Virus record (IMG/VR): IMGVR_UViG_3300032893_000168
Span: 1 to 38,096 of that record
Reading direction: 5' to 3' (one strand)
Length of the DNA: 38,096 nucleotides
Source: a virus
The notes below the pieces were generated by a model. The model was not told the DNA's origin, did not search any database, and saw nothing but the letters and a program-made list of their open reading frames with translations. The position numbers and the translations under genes are program-made. Shown piece by piece: positions 1 through 38,096 of this stretch (positions are counted from its first letter, which is position 1; every line of letters begins with the position of its first letter).

Positions 1-131
1 CGGCCGGTGTGCCGGGCACACCGGCGCTGCAACCCCTGGACGTGGGCGCGCTCGACCCGCGCTGGGTGAACTGGTTCGGGGCGAAGCTGGCGGCGGCCTA
101 CCGGGAGTACGACGCGATCCCCCCGGAATGA
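1..131 (+). CDS. tail assembly chaperone (lambda gpG-like), 3' part across the junction
   Basis: This is the C-terminal part of the gene that begins at 37789. Position 1 is the second base of a codon, codons start at multiples of three, and the stop is TGA at 129-131. On the circle the protein is 103 residues. It lies between the tail tube gene and the tape measure gene, the usual place for the G protein of the G/GT chaperone pair that guides tail-tube assembly around the tape measure. The stop overlaps the next start as ATGA at 128. A slippery C CCC CCG (119-125) just before the stop would move ribosomes by -1 into the frame of the gene at 128. The assignment rests on position and overlap structure, as the sequence itself has no diagnostic motif. 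Confidence 0.75.
   Translation, partial: AGVPGTPALQPLDVGALDPRWVNWFGAKLAAAYREYDAIPPE
3..25. repeat. 23-bp inverted repeat inside chaperone gene
   Basis: Two perfect 11-bp arms (3-13 and 15-25) flank a single G at 14. The structure is coding (it reads AGVPGTPA) and also appears at 37972-37994. It lies about 95 nt upstream of the slippery site, so it is not a classical downstream frameshift stimulator. It could still form a strong mRNA hairpin or a cruciform. Confidence 0.6.
119..125 (+). other. putative -1 programmed frameshift site C CCC CCG
   Basis: In the zero frame the codons are atc ccc ccg gaa tga. The heptamer C CCC CCG fits the X XXY YYZ pattern, because both tRNAs can re-pair after a slip of one base back. 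The -1 frame then reads ccc ccc gga atg, entering exactly the frame of the downstream gene and giving a fusion of about 202 residues. Such G/GT fusions are widely conserved between the tail tube and tape measure genes of siphophages. Seen: the heptamer, the frames and the position. Inferred: that it works. Confidence 0.6.
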
Positions 132-9937: not shown

Positions 9938-10903
9938 TCAAGTTAGCGCCGCAAACGGGCGCGATTCCCCCAGTCGGGGCAAATACTCACTCAGTTTCAT
10001 GCTGCGCCACAGATGCCGATTAGCGAAGCGGGCGAAGTCTTTGAGCCGCTGCTTCGTCCAGTCGTGGGCCACGGTAATATCATCCCGGCTCAGAGCGTCT
10101 AGTGGCATGACCGGCTGGCAGTATGGTTCACCGCCCCAGGCGATAATCTGCCGGAAGCGGTAGTAGCACTGCTCAAATGGCTCGTTGCCAATCAGGCAAT
10201 ACACCTGTTTGCGCTTAGGGCTTTCCATCCCCAAGACCGACATCATAGGGCGCACCCACTTCTCCTCGTCGAGCGTGTCGAACGCAAAGCGCCAGGGGCC
10301 GCGCAACACATCCCACCAGCGGTGATAGGTATTTTCAGTGAAAGAACGCGGCTCGAAGCCGCTGTTGGCGTCCATCAGTTTCGTACCTGTTTCGGTGTAG
10401 CGTTTGACGATGTGCTCTTGAAACTTGGGCGGCAGGCCGCTCAGGTTGTTGTCGCACAGGATCGGCGCCGGCTGAAAGTCCCAATCCAGGGTAAAGCGCG
10501 TTCCCTCCATTTTGGGCACGATGCAAAAGTAGCAATTCACCCAGCACCCCCGGCTGGCAAATGTCATCCGGTAATTGCCGCGCTGTTTGTCAAAACGCGG
10601 GTCAATTCCCTTGTGGCAGATAAGCCCGGTTTCCACCCGCCACCAATCGCCCAACTCAAACATGCCCGGCCCGCCGCACCAGACCTCGGCATTGGTCTTG
10701 TACCTTAGCGCAATCTGTGCCGCGATAGGTGCGTGCCAGGAAAAGATGACTGACAGCGCCACCAAATCAGCCGGCGTACCCGCAATACCCGGATCGCCAT
10801 CCCAATAACTGACCGTATGTCCCTGCTCGGCCAGCCAGTCAGCCAACTTGTGCGCCCCCAGGTTGTAATGTGGAGCAGAACAATTTACGACCAATGCTCG
10901 CAT
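9938..10903 (-). CDS. radical-SAM protein with N-terminal B12-binding-like domain
   Basis: A 321-residue protein from ATG 10903; a TTG five codons upstream is also open. Residues 1-90 resemble the Rossmann-type cobalamin-binding region that precedes many radical-SAM cores (MRALVVN...ADLVALSVIFSWH). The CxxxCxxC motif that binds the 4Fe-4S cluster is C120, C124 and C127 in SRGCWVNCYFC, followed by the PKMEG and CDNN motifs of this class. Such enzymes generate a 5'-deoxyadenosyl radical to modify a substrate, which is unknown here. It is the last gene of the leftward unit. An 18-bp inverted repeat covers its leader, and identical 9-bp repeats (taaagtcaa) flank it at 9933 and 10920, suggesting acquired cargo. 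Confidence 0.8.
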   Translation of the reverse strand: MRALVVNCSAPHYNLGAHKLADWLAEQGHTVSYWDGDPGIAGTPADLVALSVIFSWHAPIAAQIALRYKTNAEVWCGGPGMFELGDWWRVETGLICHKGIDPRFDKQRGNYRMTFASRGCWVNCYFCIVPKMEGTRFTLDWDFQPAPILCDNNLSGLPPKFQEHIVKRYTETGTKLMDANSGFEPRSFTENTYHRWWDVLRGPWRFAFDTLDEEKWVRPMMSVLGMESPKRKQVYCLIGNEPFEQCYYRFRQIIAWGGEPYCQPVMPLDALSRDDITVAHDWTKQRLKDFARFANRHLWRSMKLSEYLPRLGESRPFAALT

Positions 10904-10907
10904 CGTT

Positions 10908-10925
10908 ACTTTATCCAAGTAAAGT
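10908..10925 (-). promoter_or_regulatory. inverted repeat over the radical-SAM gene leader
   Basis: ACTTTA-TCCAAG-TAAAGT has 6-bp perfect arms and a 6-nt spacer. It ends 4 nt before ATG 10903 (reading leftward) and covers the only ribosome-binding region. It is AT-rich in a GC-rich genome. It could be an operator, or a hairpin that limits translation. Confidence 0.45.
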
Positions 10926-11935: not shown

Positions 11936-12559
11936 TCACGCTCCCTTCGGCTCCGGCTGGCCGGTGGCCGAGGCCAGCGCGGCATTAAAGCGCATCCCCG
12001 TCATTTCGTACTCGATATTGGCCTGCCGAATTTCATCGTCCGAACTATCGGCGACCGCTATGAGTTTTTTCAGCTTCTCGTCTGCGGCGCGTTGTGATTG
12101 CGCCAGGGAGATAGTCATCTCCAGCGCCGCCACCCGCTGCCGCAGCGCGGCGGTCTCGGTCTCGGCGGCGCGCAGCGGGTGGGCCGGGCACACGGCGGCA
12201 TGGGCGCGCACGTTTTCGTCCGTCATGTTGGCGATGGTGCCGTAGTCCATCCCGCAGAAGGCGCACTTGCCGTGCGTGGTCATCAGGTTATTGGCGGCGC
12301 GCCAGATCGTGCGCGCCAGGCGCTTCCAAGCCGCCGACCACTTGCGGGCCTGGTCGCGCTGCCAGATAGCGTTGCCTACGTGGTCATCAATAAACGCTGC
12401 CGAGGGAACGCCGTGAGTATCAAGTAACCTGCGCACGGCACCGTGCGCATCTTCGGATAGGGCGAGAAGCCCACGCGCTTCATCCCGTTCCCGCCGCAAC
12501 TGCTGAATGTCTGCCAGCAGGCGCGGGGCGGCGCGGATGGGGGCCGGCTTGCGGGTCAT
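11936..12559 (-). CDS. coiled-coil protein with CxxC...HxxxC zinc-binding motif
   Basis: A 207-residue protein from ATG 12559, which overlaps the methyltransferase stop as ATGA. The frame is open further upstream but only antiparallel to conserved methyltransferase motifs. Residues about 15-45 are a charged helix (LLADIQQLRRERDEARGLLAL). The middle has CAFCGMDY...VRAHAAVCPAHPLR, a zinc-finger pattern common in phage proteins. A second coiled coil (AALRQRVAALEMTISLAQSQ) follows. It probably binds zinc structurally; nucleic-acid or protein binding is inferred. It belongs to the leftward operon. Confidence 0.65.
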   Translation of the reverse strand: MTRKPAPIRAAPRLLADIQQLRRERDEARGLLALSEDAHGAVRRLLDTHGVPSAAFIDDHVGNAIWQRDQARKWSAAWKRLARTIWRAANNLMTTHGKCAFCGMDYGTIANMTDENVRAHAAVCPAHPLRAAETETAALRQRVAALEMTISLAQSQRAADEKLKKLIAVADSSDDEIRQANIEYEMTGMRFNAALASATGQPEPKGA

Positions 12560-13803
12560 GGGGCCACCGCCACGATGCGCCGCCCGATCCACTCCGCCAC
12601 ATTCACGCACACGGCGTTTCCCAACTGCCGGTAGCGCACGCTGTCGGACTGGCCCGCCGTCCACCCGTCAGGAAATCCCTGAAGGCGCTCGCACTCCACC
12701 GGCGTCAGGTGACGCACGCCGAACGGCCCTTGAACGCCGGGAGCCTGAAAGCCACCGTTGCCCGCGCTCTGTGTCGGTATCTGCTCAGCCGTCGCGCCCG
12801 CGTTCGTTCGGCGCGGCATGAAGCCAGTCACCAGATGATGCGCTTGGGCGCTGTTATCATCCGAGCCGCCGTGGCTGGTGCCCTGGGCACCAACCACGAG
12901 CGTCTCGTCGGCGTTGTTGCGCTTTCCCTTGCCGTGGCCGTTGAGCGTCTGTGCTACGAACGTTTCGCTCTCGAAGTCGCTCCGGCCAGTGCCGCCGTGG
13001 GCATTGAGCGCCGTGGCTAATTCAATTGGCCCACTAGTATTGTTTCCCCCGTAGGCAACATGCATCTGTCCGGCCTGATTGAGCGTTGATGCCGGCAGCC
13101 CCGGTTCTACCCGCGTCCGGTTTGCCTTGCTGGTGATTTGCGCCGTATCGAAGGCGATGTAATCCGTGTTCCTGGCGTTGCCGTGGCCATCGCCAGTCTT
13201 TCTAACGCTTGCCGCAAGTGAGTAGGCAGTTCTCTGCCCCGCTTCGCGGCTCGGCGCAGTATCCCCTGGGCCGCTCTCGCGCTCAAAAAGTACCTCGGCG
13301 GCGCGTCCGTCTCCAAGATGTCCGACAACGAACACACGGCGGCGGCGCTGGGCCACTCCGAAGTACTGAGCATCAAGTATCCGCCAGCAGACGCCATACC
13401 CGAGTTCGACCAGCCCGCGAAGGATGGCGGCAAAGTCCCGCCCGCCGTTGCTGGATAAAAGGCCAGGGACGTTCTCGACAACCACCCACTCAGGGCGACA
13501 CTCTGAAAGAACGCGATGGAACTCAAACCAAAGCCCGCTGCGCTCTCCGGCCAGGCCCTCCCGCTTGCCGGCAACGGACACGTCCTGGCAGGGAAAGCCG
13601 CCGCAAATAAGATCGGCTGCCGGAAGGTTGTCTCGCCCAACTCGTCTGACATCGCTGTATCGCTCCGCGTTCGGAAAGTGCGCCACCTGCACCCGCTGGC
13701 AGTGCGCGTCTATCTCCACCTGGGCCGCGCTCACCATCCCGGCGCGCTCCAGGCCCAGGTCAAACCCGCCGATGCCTGCGAACAAACTGATAAAGCTCAT
13801 CAT
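12556..13803 (-). CDS. DNA cytosine-C5 methyltransferase, orphan
   Basis: A 415-residue enzyme transferring a methyl group from SAM to C5 of cytosine in a target sequence. Motif I is LFAGIGGFDLGLERAG (7-22), motif IV is GGFPCQ with catalytic C72, motif VI is ENV (110-112) and motif VIII is QRRRRV (152-157). Motif IX is RHLTPVECERLQGFPDGW and motif X is GNAVCVNVAEWIG near the end. The target-recognition region (about 170-350) is long and rich in Gly, Asn, Thr and His. ATG 13803 overlaps the stop of a 25-residue gene as ATGATG, so it is preferred to GTG 13815. There is no restriction partner nearby, so it probably protects phage DNA or regulates it. Confidence 0.92.
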   Translation of the reverse strand: MMSFISLFAGIGGFDLGLERAGMVSAAQVEIDAHCQRVQVAHFPNAERYSDVRRVGRDNLPAADLICGGFPCQDVSVAGKREGLAGERSGLWFEFHRVLSECRPEWVVVENVPGLLSSNGGRDFAAILRGLVELGYGVCWRILDAQYFGVAQRRRRVFVVGHLGDGRAAEVLFERESGPGDTAPSREAGQRTAYSLAASVRKTGDGHGNARNTDYIAFDTAQITSKANRTRVEPGLPASTLNQAGQMHVAYGGNNTSGPIELATALNAHGGTGRSDFESETFVAQTLNGHGKGKRNNADETLVVGAQGTSHGGSDDNSAQAHHLVTGFMPRRTNAGATAEQIPTQSAGNGGFQAPGVQGPFGVRHLTPVECERLQGFPDGWTAGQSDSVRYRQLGNAVCVNVAEWIGRRIVAVAP

Positions 13804-13877
13804 TCCTGGTCCCACTCTTCCAGCCGCCCCAGCTCCGCCAGCTCGTCGGCAGTCAACGGTTGCAGTTGCTCAGTCAT
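13800..13877 (-). CDS. 25-residue acidic peptide upstream of methyltransferase
   Basis: ATG 13877 follows a clear gaagggaagg site. The peptide starts MTEQLQPLTADELAELGRL and ends EEWDQE, an acidic amphipathic helix. The stop overlaps the methyltransferase start, so it would act as a coupling leader. A 9-codon frame (MNEGKARDD) precedes it from ATG 13899. It could be a leader peptide only. Confidence 0.45.
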   Translation of the reverse strand: MTEQLQPLTADELAELGRLEEWDQE

Positions 13878-16663: not shown

Positions 16664-16960
16664 CTAGGCCAGGCCGAACAGCTTGAGCACGTCCTGGTCG
16701 GTCTGGATGATGTGATACTGGCCGCCGGCCTCTTCGACCTGGGCCTTGCGGCGCGCCTCGCCTTCGGTGAGCTGGCGGTGGCTGGCGTCCTGGCTGGGGT
16801 CCTTGATCTCGACGATGTAAACCTGGCCGCCGCGCACCCACAGGCGGTCGAAGCCCAGCTCGGGCGCGCTGGTGCACGGGATCACGTGCGCGCCCAGCCG
16901 GCGGGCCAGGGCGTCGAGCTGCGGCTGGTTGGCGTCAATGCGCTTGCTGTAGCGGCTCAC
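16664..16960 (-). CDS. small PD-(D/E)XK / VRR-NUC-like nuclease
   Basis: A 98-residue protein whose GTG start at 16960 overlaps the helicase loader stop as GTGA. It begins VSRYSKRIDANQPQLDALARRLGA, then FDRLWVRGGQVYIVEIKD: the Asp before the second strand and the E-I-K at the end of the third strand form the PD-(D/E)XK metal site. The C-terminal GGQYHIIQTDQDVLKLF matches VRR-NUC endings. Such phage enzymes resolve junctions or degrade ends. It could act with the RecT protein encoded upstream. Confidence 0.78.
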   Translation of the reverse strand: MSRYSKRIDANQPQLDALARRLGAHVIPCTSAPELGFDRLWVRGGQVYIVEIKDPSQDASHRQLTEGEARRKAQVEEAGGQYHIIQTDQDVLKLFGLA

Positions 16961-17784
16961 GGCTCGTCGCTCTCGTAGTGAAAGCTGCCCATCAGTGGGC
17001 GCATGGAGGGCGCGGCCAGCTCGACGACGCGGAAGCGCCCGTCGCGCACGCGGTCGGCGAACCAATCGTCGGATTTTTCGGGCGGCCAGTTGCTGGCGAA
17101 CAGGGTGACCGTCTCTTGGCCCAGGGCTGACTCGTAGCGCTGGTTGAAGATGCGCGCCTGGGCCTCCCGCGTCCACTCGGTGTCCTTGGCGCGCCCGAAC
17201 TCGTCAACAGCCAGCACCTTGACGGTCCGCCAGCGCTCGACGCGCTCGTCGTAGTCGCCTTTGTCGTAGCCGGCGCGCAGGTGTTGCAGCAGGTCGGCCC
17301 AGTTCGCGTACACTGCTGGCTGCCCGTCGCGGATAGCCTGGGCCACGGCCGCTTTCAGCAGTAGCGTTTTGCCGGGTCCCGGCGGGCCCCAGATGAAGCA
17401 CCAGCCGGAGCCGGCGTTGAGCGTGGCGCGCACAGCCTGGAGCGCCAGGCCCACGACAGCGTTGGTGGTGGTGACACTCGACCAATTGATGGCGAGGTCG
17501 GCGACTGACAGGGCGCTGGCGGCTTGCAGGCTGGCTAGCTGCACGGCGCGGAGGCCCTGCTCGGCGCAGTCGCAGACAAACAGCTTCCCGAACAGCGGAT
17601 GCCCGACCGGCGCCTCCACCCGCACGTAGCCGATGCCGTGGCAGACCGGGCAAGCCGGCTCGCCGAGGTCGCCGGGCCGCCAGCGCGAGTCTGCTGGAAG
17701 CGTAGACTGCCAGTCGTCTACCAGCCGGCGGCTTTCGGAGCGATTGCCCTGAATACGGTTGATGGCGCTATGAAGGCTTTCCAT
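16957..17784 (-). CDS. DnaC/IstB-like AAA+ helicase loader
   Basis: A 275-residue ATPase with ggag before ATG 17784. An N-terminal zinc site is suggested by CPVC (45-48) and CDC (71-73). The Walker A motif GPPGPGKT is at 133-140, the Walker B VLAVDEFG near 192-199, and the sensor/arginine region includes FASNWPPEK. DnaC-type loaders deliver the replicative DNA helicase to an origin. The phage has no helicase or polymerase of its own, so this protein probably captures the host helicase, as lambda P does. It lies directly downstream of the initiator gene, with which it overlaps by 17 nt. Confidence 0.88.
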   Translation of the reverse strand: MESLHSAINRIQGNRSESRRLVDDWQSTLPADSRWRPGDLGEPACPVCHGIGYVRVEAPVGHPLFGKLFVCDCAEQGLRAVQLASLQAASALSVADLAINWSSVTTTNAVVGLALQAVRATLNAGSGWCFIWGPPGPGKTLLLKAAVAQAIRDGQPAVYANWADLLQHLRAGYDKGDYDERVERWRTVKVLAVDEFGRAKDTEWTREAQARIFNQRYESALGQETVTLFASNWPPEKSDDWFADRVRDGRFRVVELAAPSMRPLMGSFHYESDEP

Positions 17785-18685
17785 GCTTGGCTCCCTGACG
17801 GGCTTTCTCGGCCAGATCGGCCCGGATGGCGGCTTCCTGCTCCGGCGTAAATCTCAGGCGCGGCGAAGCCGGCGCGGACAGGCCGCCGGCCGGCCGGCCC
17901 TGCGGCCCCTGCGGCGGGATGCCGGTGACATACCACTCGGTGGCCCACTTCCACGAATTTGGATTGTGGCCGCGCTCGAGCCACTCGCGCCGGCAGCCGC
18001 GCAGCTTTTCGGTGTCAGGGTGATCGCCCAGCACCTTCAGCAGCGTGTCGTACAGGCCGATGTCGGGGTAGCGCCCGGCCACGGCGCGCAGCGCCTCGAT
18101 GGCCGGATAGCGCGAGCGGCGGCCCGCGCCGAGTCCAGATTTCTGGTCCAGATTTCTGGACTCTTCCCTCTTTGAATTAAAAGAATCTGTATTTAAGTTC
18201 TTAGAGGGAGGGCAGTCCAGAGTCCTGGACTCTGGACTCGCCTTGTTTTGCCGAGGCTCCCGCGCGCCGGTCCCAATTTCCGGTCCAGCTTTCTGGACTA
18301 ATCCAGATTCCTGGACTCGGTCGGGCGGCTCGCTGGCGCCGGTAATCTCGCCAGCGGGAGAGGCAGCGGCCGAGACGCCGGCAGGGTCATCTCCGGTGTC
18401 GTCGAAGTAAACCACCAGGTGATCGCTCTCGATCTTCCAGCGGGTGCCAAACAGGCGGCGCAGCACCACCAGGTGCGCCAGCACCGTGGAGCGGCCCTTG
18501 CCGAACAGGCGGCGCAGCTCGTCGAAGGCCAGGGGCGGCGTCTGGGTCAGCCCCCAGCCCAGGGCGCGCAGGTCGAGCCAGGTTTCCAGCGCGCTGGCCG
18601 GCAGGCGGTTGCCGTGGGGATCGCGGTAGGTGAGCATCTGAATGGGGGCGCGCACGTAGTGCGGCGGCCAGAGCGGGCGAGTCAC
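17768..18685 (-). CDS. replication initiator (lambda O-like) carrying the candidate origin
   Basis: A 305-residue protein from GTG 18685, which overlaps the upstream stop as GTGA. Residues about 1-105 look like a winged-helix DNA-binding domain (DELRRLFGKGRSTVLAHLVVLRRLFGTRW). Residues about 110-200 are a disordered Ser/Pro/Asn linker encoded by repeated, palindromic DNA with an AT-rich centre. Residues about 200-265 (YPAIEALRAVAGRYPDIGLYDTLLKVLGDH to SWKWATEWYVTGI) are a helical domain likely to contact the loader. The domain order with repeats in the linker and the loader gene downstream parallels lambda O and P. The role is inferred from this arrangement. Confidence 0.75.
   Translation of the reverse strand: MTRPLWPPHYVRAPIQMLTYRDPHGNRLPASALETWLDLRALGWGLTQTPPLAFDELRRLFGKGRSTVLAHLVVLRRLFGTRWKIESDHLVVYFDDTGDDPAGVSAAASPAGEITGASEPPDRVQESGLVQKAGPEIGTGAREPRQNKASPESRTLDCPPSKNLNTDSFNSKREESRNLDQKSGLGAGRRSRYPAIEALRAVAGRYPDIGLYDTLLKVLGDHPDTEKLRGCRREWLERGHNPNSWKWATEWYVTGIPPQGPQGRPAGGLSAPASPRLRFTPEQEAAIRADLAEKARQGAKHGKPS
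18131..18318. other. candidate replication origin: iterons plus AT-rich segment
   Basis: Sixteen-base iterons close to GTCCAGATTTCTGGAC occur at 18133-18148, 18146-18161, 18215-18230, 18283-18298 and 18301-18316. The first two overlap with a 13-bp period. A further form at 18222-18237 helps build a 25-bp inverted repeat (12-bp arms, 18214-18238). Between the groups, 18164-18206 is strongly AT-rich in a GC-rich genome, a likely unwinding element. All of this lies within the linker-coding part of the initiator gene, as in lambda O. Confidence 0.72.
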
Positions 18686-37789: not shown

Positions 37790-38096
37790 TGCCCGAGTTC
37801 ACGCACGCGGCGCTGGGGCTGGCCCTGGCGCTCAAGGACGATCTGCGCCAGGGCGACCTGGAGCGCTGGGCGGCGGCGATCCGCGAGTTCGAGCCCAAGG
37901 GGCCGGCCACCAGCAACCGCGAGTACTACGGGGCGCAGCTGCGCGGGGCGCTGAAGGCCGGCGTGGCCACGGCCGGTGTGCCGGGCACACCGGCGCTGCA
38001 ACCCCTGGACGTGGGCGCGCTCGACCCGCGCTGGGTGAACTGGTTCGGGGCGAAGCTGGCGGCGGCCTACCGGGAGTACGACGCGATCCCCCCGGA
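37789..38096 (+). CDS. tail assembly chaperone (lambda gpG-like), 5' part
   Basis: Starts at ATG 37789 with MPEFTHAALGLALALKDDLRQ and continues across the assembly junction into 1-131. The complete protein has 103 residues: a helical N-terminal half (LERWAAAIREFEP) and a C-terminal half ending AAAYREYDAIPPE. The last 127 bases of this entry repeat 1-127. Position between tail tube and tape measure, plus the slippery site near its end, supports the chaperone call. Confidence 0.75.
   Translation, partial: MPEFTHAALGLALALKDDLRQGDLERWAAAIREFEPKGPATSNREYYGAQLRGALKAGVATAGVPGTPALQPLDVGALDPRWVNWFGAKLAAAYREYDAIPP
37970..38096. repeat. terminal direct repeat, right copy
   Basis: Exact copy of 1-127. 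It covers the 3' part of the first tail assembly chaperone gene, including an inverted repeat and the C-run slippery site. It should be counted once in the circular genome. Confidence 0.93.

Follow-up and report, generated by a model that had tools for sequence, protein, structure and literature searches.

A probable replication origin inside the initiator gene of a tailed phage, and a possible two-residue link between initiator and iteron

Where does this phage begin to copy its DNA, and does an array of repeats inside one of its own genes mark the place? The window analysed here is the whole IMG/VR record IMGVR_UViG_3300032893_000168 (positions 1–38,096; 38,096 bp), to which all coordinates refer. 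From the features described below, we consider it very likely that the array marks the replication origin of the phage, located within the gene of the phage's own initiator. That plan is itself already known; the new part is a possible two-residue code relating the initiator to the sequence of its sites.

Genome, initiator and loader

The first and last 127 bp of the window (1–127 and 37970–38096) are an identical direct repeat, and the window is therefore probably a complete phage genome. Terminase, portal, protease and major head proteins are among its products, which identifies a tailed phage. A RecT gene lies upstream of the initiator gene. The block of replication genes also contains a DNA methyltransferase gene (12556–13815, minus strand; PHROG E 5e-95), and a radical SAM domain protein is encoded at 9938–10918 (minus strand; PHROG E 1e-11). 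The phage appears to be related to elements of Anaerolineae (Chloroflexota). Because no close relative was found in the collections searched (full-length initiator and loader against IMG/VR, initiator against INPHARED), its host is one that we only infer.

The initiator gene (17768–18685, minus strand) encodes 305 residues. Its start is probably the GTG at 18685, which overlaps the upstream stop codon (GTGA), because the resulting N terminus, VTRPLWPPHYV, can be aligned with the N termini of relatives; strand and start are small corrections to a preliminary description of this gene. The protein matches no PHROG family and no Pfam family even at E ≤ 1, Phage_rep_O (PF04492) included; in the same Pfam search, the initiators L048 and L056 match Phage_rep_O at 5e-14 and 1e-20. 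Residues 1–100 (18386–18685, minus strand) are predicted to form a winged-helix (wHTH) domain, on the basis of homologues and of a confident AlphaFold2 model (pLDDT 88.9, pTM 0.79). The recognition helix spans residues 65–79 in this model and begins with R65-S66. The domain is 20–32% identical to 24 homologues, and Foldseek returns only generic wHTH matches, with a fold resembling that of ArsR/SmtB/MarR/CodY-type proteins (best E 0.04).

The end of the initiator gene is overlapped by a gene for a 275-residue DnaC/IstB-like AAA+ helicase loader (16957–17784, minus strand), as the preliminary description had proposed for the neighbouring gene. The assignment is based on matches to Pfam IstB_IS21 (E 7.5e-12; 45.7 bits, above the curated cut-off of 24.1) and to the PHROG family of DnaC-like loaders (E 4.6e-21). 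L051, an independent contig, is a distant relative whose array, of the GTCCA type, consists of GTCCAAATTTTTGGAC sites; the loader adjoining its initiator is 39% identical to that of the window (E 6e-46). The same cassette therefore occurs in both, its proteins diverged but its iteron almost identical; BLAST finds no similarity between the C-terminal parts of the two initiators.

The iteron array

Four to six copies of the iteron, the 16-bp palindrome GTCCAG-n4-CTGGAC, lie between 18133 and 18316 within the initiator gene. Two copies, GTCCAGATTTCTGGTC (18133–18148) and GTCCAGATTTCTGGAC (18146–18161), overlap at an offset of 13 bp. Another, GTCCAGAGTCCTGGAC (18215–18230), overlaps a copy on the opposite strand (18222–18237), and both lie inside a perfect 25-bp inverted repeat of 12+1+12 (18214–18238). 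Two further copies are GTCCAGCTTTCTGGAC (18283–18298) and ATCCAGATTCCTGGAC (18301–18316), and a degenerate, doubtful copy, GTCCCAATTTCCGGTC, is found at 18270–18285. Iterons flank on both sides an AT-rich 43-mer (18160–18202), a candidate unwinding element with 28% GC in a 67% GC gene; its GC content puts it in the lowest 0.03% of 43-mers genome-wide. No copy of the iteron with one mismatch or fewer occurs elsewhere in the 38,096-bp record. The preliminary description had placed five to six 16-bp iterons at 18131–18318, with a 13-bp overlap, a 25-bp inverted repeat and a flanked 43-bp AT-rich patch, and each of these elements is present. The GC-skew check that it had proposed gave no support: the minimum of a crude cumulative skew, which is confounded by gene direction, lies at about 14–15 kb and not at 18.2 kb.

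Relatives and alternative readings

An exact scan of IMG/VR for the 16-mer identified about ten contigs, most with several copies, in which it is located in genes that resemble initiators and have the N-terminal domain in common; exact matches outside initiators were single chance copies and were set aside. A scan for iteron pairs that was blind to protein added more such genes, together with two Phage_rep_O genes carrying GTCCA-type arrays. In genome searches, relatives of the L031 group turned up in Anaerolineae metagenome-assembled genomes, and diverged homologues in the same class. Most weak wHTH matches in Chloroflexota genomes (E about 1e-4) were ArsR-like regulators without arrays and were rejected.

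Other relatives have different palindromes in their linkers, again 16 bp long and built as 6+4+6, with half-sites CGGCAA (L070, L071), CTGCAA (L073), GAGCAA (L119), GTGCAG (L123), ATCCAA (L124), GTCCAC (L128), TTCCGC (L129) and CTCCCG (L130). Arrays begin right behind the wHTH domain and comprise 2–14 sites in mid-gene, usually around or beside an AT-rich patch: of 18 genes, 14 have their lowest-GC 45-mer inside the array and 3 more have it at most 60 bp away. The array search found none in the genes of five homologues (L072, L074, L076, L125 and L127). The C-terminal regions vary between relatives, and those of L124, L130 and L072, from Chloroflexota genomes, end in DnaA domain I (PF11638; E 5e-7 to 2e-8), which is a helicase-binding module in DnaA. 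The fusion suggests direct helicase recruitment, and the C-terminal differences together with these three cases suggest that helicase-recruitment modules are swapped behind a common reader domain.

Three side observations were made in these contigs. A ParB-like protein is encoded directly downstream of one initiator (L118:4851–5834), a hint that this element may live as a phage-plasmid or a plasmid. In L205, L216, L227, L232, L237 and L238, a conserved gene encoding a GLSKSKVQALVDEDRP helix carries GTCCATGGAC palindromes and others of the GTCCA type close to its start; it seems to encode a regulator and not an initiator. Eight loci (L043, L049, L054, L055, L060, L206, L212 and L226) have GTCCA-type clusters outside recognizable wHTH open reading frames, in short repetitive reading frames.

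Could the palindromes be operators, at which a wHTH regulator binds inside its own gene and represses the operon, instead of or besides acting in replication? The ArsR/SmtB/MarR/CodY-like fold would suit this, as would the palindromic sites, which regulators of this kind typically bind. However, the mid-gene position and number of the sites, their usual association with an AT-rich patch, the IstB/DnaC-like loaders among the neighbours, the DnaA domain I of three relatives and the annotation of named phages of like layout as encoding O or initiation proteins all argue against it, and we regard operators as unlikely. An even smaller chance attaches to a partition (centromere-like) or incompatibility site in place of a start site. 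The ParB gene of L118 would fit such a site, as would phage LE1, in which an HTH protein similar to initiators of the GGCAA class described below is encoded between parA and parB; in the window, however, none of the 20 proteins scanned matches a partition family and the initiator adjoins a helicase loader. Finally, although several relatives (L119 and L070, for example) have a repetitive linker, it is scarcely credible that the repeats arise from a low-complexity peptide whose repetition the DNA follows, as one palindrome is translated as SRNLD, VQKSG or PNFWT depending on frame, and none of 10,000 shuffles of the window gene, in which synonymous codons were permuted with protein and codon usage held constant, matched the observed array (four perfect TCCAG-n4-CTGGA palindromes, where no shuffle had more than three). 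The palindromes of the window and its relatives occupy all three reading frames, and it is therefore the DNA that is conserved, not the peptide. Among 35 genes tested in the same way, there were 19 for which none of 200 shuffles reached the palindrome content of the actual gene; the remainder were weaker or lacked an array.

Helix and iteron co-vary

The preliminary description had proposed comparing homologous initiators for iterons that co-vary with the N-terminal domain, and such co-variation is found. With half-sites assigned semi-manually from the array search, similarity of the recognition helix predicts similarity of the half-site after the rest of the domain is removed (partial r 0.57, N = 18, p 1e-4), also among 12 diverged members (partial r 0.59, p 1e-4). 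In the reverse test, the rest of the domain adds nothing (partial r about 0). Thus, the palindrome sequence tracks the recognition helix and not overall relatedness. The window initiator itself has the iteron and the R-S motif of the GTCCA group, although only 18–28% of its non-helix positions are shared with that group.

Larger sets single out two positions of the helix. A protein-blind scan for GGCAA-n4-TTGCC pairs recovered many genes of a different initiator family, with helices of the form GL-x-ERQ-x-RN, and a third DNA scan enlarged the GTCCA class. With helix positions taken from one profile alignment, arginine at position 4 (R4) is found in 19 of 20 GTCCA genes and none of 24 GGCAA genes, and arginine at position 5 (R5) in none of the 20 and all of the 24; these counts exclude one wrong-strand reading frame of L185 and those DNA-scan loci (43 of 63 and 27 of 51) in which the pipeline detected no wHTH upstream of the array in the same reading frame. 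The split is retained when genes are grouped at 40% identity: R4 occurs in 6 of 7 GTCCA clusters versus 0 of 8 GGCAA clusters (p 1.4e-3) and R5 in 0 of 7 versus 8 of 8 (p 1.6e-4), with no mixed cluster. Identity clusters were used because clustering at a loose BLAST cut-off merged nearly everything. A protein-first set, assembled without iteron patterns and including lambda, mEpX1, SEN22 and GZ7 (helix positions of these four aligned by eye), shows the same pairings, R4 with G at half-site position 1 (G1; p 0.010) and R5 with G at position 3 (G3; p 0.004), and the swapped pairings are not significant.

We lean towards a code common to several unrelated families of phage wHTH initiators, in which R4 would specify G1 (GTCCA and similar), R5 would specify G3 (GGCAA, TGCAA) and both together GTGCA (L123). 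GTCCA sites were predicted beforehand for L126 (GRSAFYTHL), and three were found, each differing at one or two positions. For two other helices with R4-S5 this prediction failed: there is no array in the gene of L072 (PRSTLYRHL) and no GTCCA site in L131 (VSRSAISRHI). Exceptions are L124 (R4 with A1), L119 (neither arginine, yet G1 and G3) and L236 (GTCCA without R4). No earlier report of such a code was found in the open-access literature, subscription papers being outside the search.

Proposed mechanism and implications

Binding, replication start and helicase recruitment are steps that we infer from the analysis. An initiator dimer would bind each 16-bp palindrome, the half-site centres of which are about one helical turn apart, making contact through R65-S66, with which the recognition helix begins. 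Once the array is filled, the AT-rich patch at 18160–18202 would open. The C-terminal part of the initiator may then recruit the adjoining DnaC-like protein, which would load the host DnaB helicase for theta replication. Target and reader reside in one gene, and changes of specificity can therefore be inherited together.

This work extends the lambda O–P plan to an unannotated initiator family in phages related to Anaerolineae elements, and turns a guess about a single locus into a general, testable rule that links two residues to origin sequence in families sharing little sequence. If the rule is true, in-gene origins could be predicted from protein sequence alone, the origins of many uncultured phages could be located in this way and specificities could be swapped by two residues. 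Initiator specificity would also be an easy case for the co-evolution of a protein with a binding site in the same DNA.

Comparison with known systems

In phage lambda, O dimers bind inverted repeats in gene O beside a 40-bp AT-rich region (PMC5043065), and this binding opens the AT-rich region (PMC5043065, PMC7466680). The window resembles lambda O–P (PF04492; ori-lambda in gene O) in its mid-gene origin, its palindromic iterons behind an N-terminal DNA-binding domain, the AT-rich stretch beside them and the helicase loader gene that follows, a likeness to which the preliminary description had drawn attention; the set of initiator, iterons and loader is seen again in L051. Unlike in lambda, the initiator has no Phage_rep_O match, the AT-rich patch has sites to either side, the loader is of the DnaC/IstB type and the iterons are 16 bp rather than 18–19 bp. 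The iteron had been called unrelated to that of lambda, which is only partly right: the lambda site ATCCCTCAAAACGAGGGA is longer, at 18 bp, with a wider centre, but it too has TCC...GGA ends.

Pseudomonas phage Skulduggery, Klebsiella phage GZ7 and phage mEpX1 likewise encode an HTH initiator followed by a DnaC-type loader, and in-gene palindromes also occur in mEpX1 (GTCTC-n7-GAGAC) and GZ7 (TTACC-n7-GGTAA); the initiators of all three belong to other sequence families, with other iterons. The RepA–origin modules of PLEs, satellites in Vibrio cholerae, also pair a swappable initiator with a cognate iteron origin, but that origin is noncoding, lies outside repA and has sites of about 30 bp (PMC8263062), whereas the window array is in-gene with sites of 16 bp. 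Iteron plasmids share repeated initiator sites and an AT-rich region (PMC5043065). Their iterons are mostly direct repeats bound by monomers (PMC5043065) and lie outside the rep gene, whereas those of the window are palindromes within the coding region of the initiator.
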